Shown here in pieces: positions 10,639-22,135 of a DNA stretch of 64,000 nt. Both the position numbers and the translations under genes were made by a program. Under the pieces are notes generated by a model that did not search any database, was not told the origin of the DNA, and worked only from the letters and a program-made list of their open reading frames with translations. The stretch's first letter is position 1; every line of letters starts with the position of its first letter. Origin of the DNA: Arion vulgaris (taxonomy: Eukaryota; Mollusca; Gastropoda; Stylommatophora; Arionidae); NCBI GenBank assembly GCA_020796225.1, contig CM036758.1:31093647-31157646 (forward strand), written 5' to 3'.

Positions 10639-10785
10639 TTATAAACTGTAGCTCATAGGTATGTCATAGTATCCGGATATCCGTAGTGCTAACCAAAGGT
10701 CCTTGGGTTGAAGGGTCACTCGCTTGGCATGTAGACAGCAATGGTTGGATTCTTCAAAAAGTCGTGTCATGTAAGCTTCACATGC
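10639..10785 (-). CDS. CENPA: CENP-A exon 5 (end of histone fold, stop)
   Basis: Acceptor GTTTCGTTGCAG at 10786, then 48 codons and TAA. The peptide starts [14 protein letters not shown], runs through [20 protein letters not shown] and ends PMSYSL. This is the end of helix 2, loop 2 and helix 3 of an H3-type histone fold (H3 has [31 protein letters not shown]). It is diverged from canonical H3 and carries a C-terminal extension of about ten residues, as expected for a CenH3 and not for a replication-dependent H3. It joins in phase 0 to 13502-13585. Confidence 0.95.
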
Positions 10786-10861
10786 CTGCAACGAAACAAA
10801 TAAGAAGTATATTTAATGAAATGATTCCCTTTCTGAAGTTGGAGTAAAGCTGATTGATTGA

Positions 10862-11040
10862 TTGGGCCGCCTGTGTGGTGCCGGGCAGCAAGGAAGCCAA
10901 GAATAGTAACACTGTGACTTACTAGGCAAGTCGTAAGAGGCGACTGATGTAGGGGCCTAGGGAAGCTACCTTAGTAAATAAAAATCGTAGCAGAAATTGG
11001 ATGTGCTGACCTACTTATAGGTACATAATTGGCACAATCT
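10862..11040 (+). mobile_element. SINE-A copy, truncated
   Basis: Starts at a head CGCCTGTGTGGTGCCGGGC, then GTAAGAGGCGACTGATGTAG and GGAAGCTACCTTAGTAAATA. Lies in CENP-A intron 4. Confidence 0.75.
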
Positions 11041-11510
11041 CTGCACCTCAACGGCACGACGATTCTCAGCTATGTGAGTTTCTCTTGTGTTGTTACAGAA
11101 CCACATTTTGCAATCTTGCACGAGGGATTCATGCGAGGTCTAATGACTACTTCTGAATTAATTGCAGGAGAATGACATTTTTTTTAAAAATGGCATGATT
11201 ACTTGATGGCATGACCAACATATGTTATCGATGTCATAACACATTGGGCATTCCCATGCCTGCTGTCCTCTGCTGCAGCAGCCATCCCAAAGTCCACTTG
11301 CTAGAAGGTACCCATGAGAAGTCGATTAACATATCTTTTCTATCTACCACGAAGATGACACTGTCTGGCATGTCCAAACATAACTCCTAATTCTCGCCCA
11401 TATCATATAAATGTACGTGTACCGCATTGATGACATCGGATCTGTCCATACTTCGGATCAACAAGTTTAAGACATGGATGGGAAGGGGTTACTTTTCTGC
11501 ATGATTCCAT
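11041..11510. repeat. Old repeat-derived sequence, CENP-A intron 4
   Basis: Has CTCAACGGCACGACGATTCTCA and GTGTTGTTACAG, similar to the LINE end at 43600-43700, then unassigned sequence. Probably a decayed LINE 3' end. Confidence 0.4.
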
Positions 11511-11523
11511 TGTATTCTTTAAT

Positions 11524-11755
11524 CTTCTTTGTGTTCGTTCTTTACAACCAATTTTAATCACTCCTTGTGATATGTTTGATCTTTGCCAAGAACGTGTATA
11601 CGTTGCACATTGGTTTGGTAGGCCCCTAAACGCATAGAATTCTACACGTTTAGGACATGTGCATCCGATTTCAGCCAAACCTCCTTAGTCGCCTTTACGA
11701 CATGCGTGGCAGGTAACAGTGATTCTATTCTTTAGACCCCAAATTTGGGCCCCGG
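11524..11755 (-). mobile_element. SINE-B copy with 11-bp TSD
   Basis: Flanked by TATTCTTTAAT (11513-11523 and 11756-11766). Contains TGATCTTTGCCAAGAACGTG, CGTTGCACATTGGTTTGGTA, CACGTTTAGGACATGTGCAT and GCAGGTAACAGTG, the SINE-B diagnostic blocks. Confidence 0.9.
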
Positions 11756-11781
11756 TATTCTTTAATGAATGTAGAGAGCCT

Positions 11782-19059: not shown

Positions 19060-21110
19060 TAACCTGTTTGGATTTCTCTGTCATTTTTTGTTTTCCTGTA
19101 GTTGTTTAAGAAAATATTTGCCAGTGTTGGAATGTCCCTCACCAAAACATCTGTTATTGAACAACCACAAGCTACAATGAGTTTTGTCTTCCTTGAAGTA
19201 ATGAATAAAATTAGCTGTCACAGTGTCCATCACAATTTCCTTGTGGTTGGGGAATTTAAAAACTGTTGTTCATAATCTGAAGAGATTAGTGATTGCACAA
19301 CAGGGTAGGCCATAAGACTTAAAACTGTTAAAGAATGTGTTGGGTATTTTAAGTCACCTCGGTCGAGATGCGAGTGTACTTGACCCATGAAACAATGGAG
19401 AGGTTCGCTCAATTTCTACAGTTAAATACTTGTCATGCTGCAGAAACTTGCAGCAGGAAGAGCACTTCAGTTTTTTTGATACATTGAAGGCAATAAAGCC
19501 GCTTATGTATACCAGCACATTCATTGTTCCATCTGGAACAAGAATTTCACTTGTTTCCACATTAACCATGAATTAACCTGAACACATTTGGTATGCTCGG
19601 GTTGTTTCTCCGAGTCAATATCAGCCATGTTGAATACTGTTGACAGGTCAGAAATAGCAACATCACCACGGCTTGATGAACACATGCTAAGTACAGAATA
19701 AATTATAACCGCTACATTATAATCACTGAACACACTAAGGCCAGTGGCACCTTTTGCCTATCAAGATTGGATGTTAGATTGGTACCAGTTTAACAATTTT
19801 GTGTATATCCTGAAAATACAGTTTTCAGACTAGACAGTGTAGCTTTCAAAACGGGATTATCAGTTTACAGGGTATGGAGGGCAAATGTCTGTTCTGCATT
19901 CTTTAAATTTAGCCAGTTGTGCCAAATACATTTCAACAAATGAACAGTCATGAAATAGGAATATGGGTTTCCCATCATGCTGATGATTATCACAGCTTAT
20001 TTGTTTTATGAACACAGTTCCTTATAAACCCTTCTGTTCTAGCCCTCTGTGAGTGCGGGTTCAATTCCGCGGGCTGGCAGAAAAGCCACAGGTTCCCAGA
20101 TTCACGGTGTTCATGGCACCGAACCGAAGAGCTGAAAGCTCAAGTGCTTCTTTATCGAAAATAAAACAAACAAAAAAACCTTCTGTTAACTGTACTATTG
20201 TCCGCAATGACAGCTAGTACAGTGAATGCAGATGACTTCACACACTGTATAGTCTGAGGCAAATTGGTCCATGATCACCTGCTGTCCTCTTCTTCATGGG
20301 GATTAGTCCTACTACCTCAAAGGTGGGAATCAAGTTTATAAGTGTAGATCAATGCAGAAGGTATAACAATTTTGATTTTCACAAAAATCTATAGCAGGCA
20401 GGAGACTTGATGAAAGCCATATATGCCAAACATTGAGTTCTGCTGCTATAATGCTGCCTTCTGTCAGTAGTTATCAACAACAGCTGTGCTCATCCAGAAA
20501 CAGCAAATTTTCTTCTTCAACAATACTCTCCATATTTAAATTAGACATTAAATTCACCTACTTTACCAAATTCTCATGAGCTTTTGTAAGGTATTCATCA
20601 ACAGTTACATTGTTTTCTACATCAGTGAATAAAAAAATTTCTACCTGGGACCATCTCTCTAATTTTCCATTACTGAAAAGCCAATTAAATGATTTTGTAT
20701 TAACTGAATTCTCCTTATTGTGAACAATGATGACATGTAATGAAGACATGTCTTGAACAATTTTAATACTGAGTTCTATGACACAGGTGCTCGGTAGGGT
20801 TCTACATTTAATGTGTAGAACAGAACATATTCATCGCTCAAGCATGTGTCACGTGTGCAACATTGAGTTCTATCCCAGTAGAATCTCTAAATTTCTCTGA
20901 AGTAATTACTTCATTCTGAAAATGTTTCATACACACAACACTGTTTTTGGTTGTAACCCAACCTTACGAGAAATGCTTCGAATCCATTTTTCTCGAAGCT
21001 CAAGGCTGAGTGATTGAGATGGAAATTGAAACACTGTAGTATATTCTTCACCCTTGTAGTTTGATCTACATTCATGCACATAACACTTTAAGTTAATGAT
21101 TAACTTGTCT
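19060..21110 (-). pseudogene. Decayed THAP/P-element-type transposase
   Basis: At 20880-21095 (minus) a THAP zinc-finger reads CYVHECRSNY, TVFQFPSQSLSLELREKW, then after a one-base frameshift VCMKHFQNEVITSEKF: Cys-x4-Cys, Trp, and Cys-x2-His-Phe in the right order. At the far end (19230-19560) come VYISGFIAFNVSKKLKC, SCCKFL and, in another frame, LDRGDLKYPTHSLTVLSL, matching the C-terminal YIxGFxA..KLxC and DRGxLxYPS blocks of P-element/THAP9 transposases. Stops and frameshifts throughout and a SINE-D insertion at 20039-20176 show it is dead. The catalytic core could not be traced. It occupies CENP-A intron 1. Confidence 0.75.
20039..20176 (+). mobile_element. SINE-D, 5' truncated, inside the P-like relic
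   Basis: B-box GGTTCAATTCCGCGGGCTGG, CAGAAAAGCCACAGGTTCCC, ending CGAAAATAAAACAAAC. Flanks AAACCCTTCTGTT and AAACCTTCTGTT form the likely target duplication (one indel). Confidence 0.82.
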
Positions 21111-21118
21111 TCCTTTGC

Positions 21119-21745
21119 GACTGCTTGTCAGTCCTGCAGGCTACACAAAGGGAACCACAAGATAACATGGAAAGAGAGCTGATACTACAGCTAAACAAGC
21201 TCTCAGAACACAACAAAATTATTCTCCATTGGATACCAGCCCACTGTGGCGTTCCAGGAAATGAGAGAGCAGACAGGCTGGCTAAGGAGGGAACAAAACT
21301 TACACAACAGAAAAACCCAGTATCACTACCAGAAATCAAGACACATATCAAAAGAAAGTACAAAGAGGTATGGAGGCAACAAACCCACAGCAAACACCCA
21401 CAAGATCCCATCAGCAGACTAAACAGAAAACAGCACACAACAATCTTTCGCCTAAGAACAGGTCACTGCAGGCTCAACCGCTACATGCACAGAATAAAGC
21501 CTGCTCAGACTGCACAGTGTGCATGCCAGACAGAAACACAGACTCCAGAGCACATCTGCAGTCATGTCCATCATACATACACCAACGAAATGAAACATGG
21601 CCTCAAATATATTCACGATAATAGCCTTCCAGCGACTACTATATCTACCTTAAACCGACTTCTGTTGCTTAGGCTCGATCCACTGTTAAAAACTAGAAAT
21701 CTTAGTCCGGCGGCCTGATTACACTCATTAGTCAGTATTTACAGT
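21119..21745 (+). mobile_element. LINE 3' fragment, RNase H C-terminus
   Basis: An intact 197-codon reading: IILHWIPAHCGVPGNERADR then LAKEGT (end of RNase H, with the HCGxxGNExAD motif), FRLRTGHCRLNRYMHRI, and CACQTETQTPEHICSH. RT and the first half of RNase H are missing. It starts within 10 bp of the THAP domain, head to head, so it probably removed or displaced the transposase N-terminus. Confidence 0.82.
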
Positions 21746-21751
21746 CGGTCG

Positions 21752-21845
21752 TGCATAGACCCCTACCTCTCGTTTACGACATGCCTGGCTTGCAGGTAGC
21801 AGTGTTACTATTCTTTGCTCCCCATGCGAACCCCGGCAACACACG
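21752..21845 (-). mobile_element. SINE-A, second part of a split copy
   Basis: Starts ACCCCTACCTCTCGTTTACG and runs through GCAGGTAGCAGTGTTACTAT to CCCCGGCAACACACGG, exactly what is missing after 18509. Confidence 0.7.
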
Positions 21846-22083
21846 GACGGATTTAATTTCTCAAGTCATGGCAGTACATTTTACTGCCTAACCATCATGA
21901 TCATATGTGTGCAGATTTCATTTCTAAACTAAAACTGTTTATATCATATAATCATATAATGACATTATATGCTCTCATTCGTATGTCTGATTCGACGAAT
22001 TCGGATACGTGCCGCGAGAATAAACACGAGTTCTGATGATTTGATAGCCTGTCAAACAGAAACAAAAGAATACTATTACTTAC

Positions 22084-22135
22084 GTCCTGCATTCTTTTTA
22101 GGGCTTGGCGTTTTTCGTCTACCTTTTCGAGGCAT
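22084..22135 (-). CDS. CENPA: CENP-A exon 1 (start codon)
   Basis: ATG at 22135, MPRKGRRKTPSPKKNAG, then one base and donor GGAC|GTAAGT. The basic, proline/serine-containing start suits a CenH3 tail. Taken together with exons 2-5 (phases 1-1-0-0) the protein is about 160 residues: a tail of about 55, helix N, then the histone fold. CENP-A replaces H3 in centromeric nucleosomes and founds the kinetochore. Intron 1 spans 4.8 kb and carries the dead P-like transposon. The whole gene covers 11.5 kb, far longer than intronless canonical H3 genes. Confidence 0.9.

Follow-up and report, generated by a model that had tools for sequence, protein, structure and literature searches.

The land slug Arion vulgaris carries, on the minus strand of the 64,000-nucleotide stretch analysed here (the window), a locus that we identify, with a probability of about 93%, as the CenH3 (CENP-A) gene of this species, and it is the only such locus found in the genome. 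The protein is encoded by five exons with GT-AG borders within window positions 10639-22135 and is a new, well-supported but ordinary member of the well-known CenH3 family. With this assignment, a pest slug from a lineage with a genome duplication in its past gains a precisely mapped CenH3 locus that can be tested.

The gene model was assembled from several searches. When canonical H3 was compared with the window by tblastn, three convincing pieces were recovered, at 14688-14593 (84% over 32 aa), 10788-10672 (59%, 39 aa) and 13546-13496 (65%, 17 aa), and the start exon at 22135 was located by reading upstream of them. A protein search with the joined exons, which still lacked exon 2, then identified P0001, a 160-aa UniRef protein labelled Arion vulgaris, and the alignment of P0001 to the window placed the second exon. 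The suggestion in the sequence-only reading that genes of this kind are often missed by annotation applies here only in part, since the protein is present in UniRef, but under a generic histone-domain name.

Exon 1 (22084-22135, 52 nt) contains the start codon, MPRKGRRKTPSPKKNAG and one base of the next codon, ends in a GT donor, and encodes 17 residues identical to P0001; it is followed by a phase 1 intron. Exon 2 (17179-17247, 69 nt) encodes QSRIEQANKRNDYTHQETRRESQ with split codons at both ends (phase 1 to phase 1), has AG/GT borders, and matches P0001 at 91.7% over 24 aa by tblastn; within the exon, the spliced protein departs from P0001 at one position, residue 25. The end of the N-terminal tail, helix N and helix 1 are encoded by exon 3 (14596-14725, 130 nt), which is one nucleotide short, while exon 4 (13502-13585, 84 nt) encodes loop 1 and the first half of helix 2, VKEIGTKVRLNAVTGLLWQSSAILALQE, with all 28 residues matching P0001 exactly by tblastn. 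Exon 5 (10639-10785, 147 nt) supplies the remainder of helix 2, helix 3, a C-terminal extension and the stop codon; 48 of its 49 aligned residues agree with P0001, and the remaining one comes from the intron. All exons lie on the minus strand, all four introns begin with GT and end with AG, and their phases are 1-1-0-0.

The same five exons, intron borders and phases had been proposed from the letters of the DNA, and P0001 agrees with them at all four junctions. The accompanying remark that no open reading frame exceeds 50 codons is correct for the exons themselves but not for the interval: six ORFs with lengths of 111-197 aa, which do not belong to the CenH3 gene, overlap it. By tblastn, P0001 matched all five exons, with E values from 4e-6 (exon 1) to 8e-31 (exon 5), and 158 of 160 positions are identical between P0001 and the window protein, a five-exon match that is far beyond chance. 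Since these matches span every junction, they provide independent support for the splice model: P0001 cannot be a translation of the frame-broken assembly copy described below, and it was probably derived from a transcript, as no contig is listed for it.

The description of the gene as complete, with exons spelling one open frame, did not survive this comparison, because the assembly copy lacks one nucleotide in exon 3. The exon lengths (52+69+130+84+147) sum to 482 nt, so the spliced coding sequence is one nucleotide short of a multiple of three. The frames switch at 14682-14696 (minus strand), between P0001 residues 52 and 54: one frame runs up to ...SPTTKVR and another continues from RLRPGTK, with a stop codon in the second frame immediately before RLRPG. 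P0001 is unbroken at this site, having a lysine at residue 53, and outside the shift only one of 159 comparable residues differs (residue 25, Asn in the window and Ser in P0001). Given that P0001 is intact here and that the 1.54-Gb A. vulgaris genome was produced from Nanopore reads with wtdbg2 assembly and ntEdit polishing (PMC9392753, in excerpt), a single-base assembly error is the simplest reading. Therefore, if the locus is CenH3, a leftover error of the Nanopore-based assembly is the most probable cause of the missing nucleotide; the alternative cause is a real null allele.

A broader version of that alternative holds that the locus is a decayed CenH3 copy (a pseudogene or null allele), for example a relic of the genome duplication that has been inferred at the base of Stylommatophora (PMC9392753, in excerpt), and that the working gene is missing from the assembly. 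The missing nucleotide, the difference at residue 25 and the duplication itself are all in keeping with such a history, but we regard it as very unlikely, because apart from the shift a single residue in 159 separates the locus from P0001, all splice sites are intact, the genome searches found no second locus among their best-scoring candidates, and a duplicate ~100 million years old would be expected to have diverged far more. The frameshift also signals that the gene may be lost or cut short when this assembly is annotated.

Two further observations concern this region or resemble it. An alternative acceptor for exon 3 (the TAG directly before CGACTCC) was considered as a way around the frameshift. 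It was discarded, since the phase 1 end of exon 2 would leave the frame broken and P0001 contains residues encoded upstream of this TAG. Elsewhere in the genome, the canonical H3 loci L003 and L007 likewise lose frame inside an otherwise identical H3, a weak parallel, as these two loci may be pseudogenes.

Several properties of the encoded protein place it among the CenH3 proteins. The spliced 137-residue piece used as the query matched the Pfam core histone family at E=1.8e-39, and its helix N is close to that of H3 (84% over 32 aa). As the sequence-only reading had noted, loop 1 comprises 14 residues between EI and QSSA, compared with 10 in the H3 rows of our alignment and 12 in human CENP-A, a Trp precedes the QSSA of helix 2, and a C-terminal extension follows the last helix. 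Relative to H3, and counting from the Met, the window protein has Ser in place of Gln69, Trp in place of Phe85 and Ser in place of Thr108, and Trp85 is found in 22 of 22 CenH3 rows and in none of the four H3 rows. The N-terminal tail is also diverged, reading MPRKGRRKTPSPKKNAG... and not ARTKQTARKS. Identity as canonical H3 or H3.3 was therefore rejected, since the protein has neither the ARTKQTARKS tail nor a 10-residue loop 1 nor Phe85.

The criteria for CenH3 set out in PMC4359364 (in excerpt) are a loop 1 longer than that of H3 and the replacement of Gln69 and Phe85; the same excerpt prints an H3 Thr at position 118 as absent in CenH3. In our alignment no row has lost the Thr of VT(L/I): it is present in all 26, among them human CENP-A, and the printed 118 may refer to this Thr, to Thr108, or to neither. 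A structure model of P0001, built from 19 rows, places helices at 59-71, 81-91, 97-132 and 139-149 and is of low confidence (mean pLDDT 61.1, pTM 0.26).

Only a sub-threshold archaeal histone was returned by the NCBIfam search. Some results speak against CENP-A: of the 176 matches to PDB sequences, the best 60 are either H3 types or generically named, with no CENP-A among the names, and the raw identity of the window protein to slug H3 (65/123) is no lower than that to human CENP-A (61/129). CENP-A is a fast-diverging protein, so more weight was given to the loop, the tree and the residues diagnostic of CenH3 than to raw identity and PDB matches. A divergent non-centromeric H3 variant, such as a germline H3, is favoured by the H3-like helix N and by the H3 types among the best solved sequences, but this explanation is highly improbable in light of the longer loop 1, Trp85, Ser69, the unrelated tail, the position of the protein in the tree, and the lack of any other CenH3 candidate among the best-scoring matches of the genome searches.

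For the phylogenetic analysis, 26 rows were aligned: 22 chosen from 201 listed proteins (20 CenH3-like and two H3), to which we added the window protein, the slug H3 of L001, and two human proteins, H3.3 and CENP-A; P0121, P0189 and P0201 were left out. In the resulting tree the four H3/H3.3 rows are set apart at 100/94, and the window protein falls outside them, in a nine-row group of heterobranchs at 81/98. The other deep forks are mostly weak, the branch of human CENP-A is long, and a single CenH3 row of fungal origin joins H3 at 95/90. The CenH3 identity proposed earlier, which a placement inside canonical H3 or H3.3 would have refuted, thus has the support of the longer loop 1, Trp85, Ser69, the divergent tail, and a position outside H3 and H3.3 together with gastropod CenH3-like proteins. 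Database names for such proteins can mislead in both directions, as records P0189, P0192 and P0121 illustrate: the name 'histone H3.3-like' is given to CenH3-like proteins from Haliotis rubra and Gigantopelta, and a monkey tandem canonical H3 is named CSE4.

The search of the whole genome (1,519,966,189 bases in 3,227 contigs) yielded, as best-scoring candidates, 46 matches with the fold region and 45 with P0001. Four of the latter are exons of the CenH3 gene, and each of the other 41, compared with H3 and P0001 in sets of 28 and 13, scores higher with H3 than with P0001. The DNA of exon 3 occurs once in the genome, and no second CenH3 locus was found among the best-scoring whole-genome candidates, although a second copy that is strongly diverged or unassembled may have escaped this search. 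If the stylommatophoran duplication is real, it follows that a second CenH3 was lost or lies outside the reach of the search. Separately, ten diverged H3-like stretches (L023, L024, L028, L034, L036, L039, L044, L046, L048 and L049), with ~45-75% identity to slug H3, lie in histone-rich contigs and on C15; these are probably decaying H3 copies.

The remainder of the window contains various other features. Retroelement remains with Pfam matches to RNase H and reverse transcriptase are present on the plus strand at 21125-21718, inside intron 1 of the CenH3 gene, and at 56922-57413. On the minus strand, 45089-46979 holds two ORFs of 502 and 129 aa that overlap each other and match no Pfam family, the larger having only six database relatives, all unnamed metagenome/ENA proteins of 566-615 aa with 34-52% identity, and 40513-41430 holds a 305-aa ORF with a sub-cut-off BNIP2 match (23.6 bits, with the cut-off at 27). 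Tandem arrays occupy 24695-26186 (a 43-base unit, ~35 copies), 55340-56324 (a 58-base unit, 17 copies) and 28807-29276 (a 51-base unit, ~9 copies); the last gives rise to repeat-derived open frames of 167 and 180 aa on both strands, which are probably not genes. Scanning the window with Rfam and with ARAGORN gave no matches in either case.

The analysis shows the exon structure of the gene, the histone family of its product, the residues typical of CenH3 and the placement in the tree; by analogy with its family, the slug protein would be expected to behave as other CenH3 proteins do. It would pair with H4 through the histone fold, take the place of H3 in centromeric nucleosomes, and mark the site at which the kinetochore is built and its components recruited. 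A chaperone would bind loop 1 and helix 2 as the targeting region, and CENP-C may read the extension at the C-terminus, as it does in CENP-A (PMC5777823, in excerpt).

The comparative data also allow loop 1 to be followed across lineages. It had been called unusual even for CENP-A, a view that the alignment contradicts, since eight of nine heterobranch rows (the window protein and P0001 counted separately) have the same length and one mushroom row has 18 residues; the ninth, from Candidula, is a partial record with 11. Among other gastropods the loop has 13 residues in all four caenogastropods, 11 in both Haliotis rows and 12 in Gigantopelta, and elsewhere it has 13 and 10 in two bivalves and 12 in sea urchin, frog and human. 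Given its presence in eight of nine heterobranch rows, the 14-residue loop 1 is, as judged from these alignments, a lineage trait and not a peculiarity of the slug gene. These loop lengths offer a modest lead on the evolution of the recognition loop of centromeric histones.

The composition of the loop may bear on how it is read by the kinetochore. Residues R80 and G81 of human CENP-A are contacted by CENP-N (PMC5777823, in excerpt), and all 18 mollusc CenH3 rows lack the Arg-Gly pair that is present in the frog and human rows. A search for CENP-N (PF05238) gave no match, and none of the 14 controls matched either; a search for the CENP-C C-terminal domain (PF11699) also gave none, with matches below the cut-off in four of 14 controls, each a prokaryote, so that these two blanks carry no information on whether the proteins are absent. 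As a tentative proposal, heterobranchs may have fixed a 14-residue loop lacking Arg-Gly and with it a changed inner-kinetochore interface, in which CENP-N has co-evolved or is missing, and the slug may have returned to one CenH3 after the duplication.

Among known proteins, the closest is P0001 from the same species, which represents the same five-exon product with 158 of 160 residues shared and differs only in having Ser at residue 25, where the window has Asn, and in keeping its frame at residue 53, the site of the window's frameshift. Human CENP-A resembles the slug protein in having a loop 1 longer than that of H3, Trp85, Ser69 and a divergent tail, but its loop 1 has 12 residues with Arg-Gly and its C-terminus, LEEGLG, is unlike the slug extension. 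Among the papers listed by literature searches, no title or abstract opening concerned a gastropod CenH3. A molluscan precedent is the CenH3 of the Pacific oyster, for which antibody staining and ChIP have been reported (PMC7348941, in excerpt); it comes from a bivalve, and the likeness is drawn from its description and not its sequence. Another oyster protein, P0195 of Crassostrea virginica, was included in the comparison and has a loop 1 of 13 residues. The CenH3-like proteins of Bradybaena, Lymnaea, Bulinus, Biomphalaria, Physella and Elysia share with the slug protein a 14-residue loop 1 without Arg-Gly, Trp85 and a C-terminal extension, and these heterobranch proteins are about 50-63% identical to it, with tails that differ.
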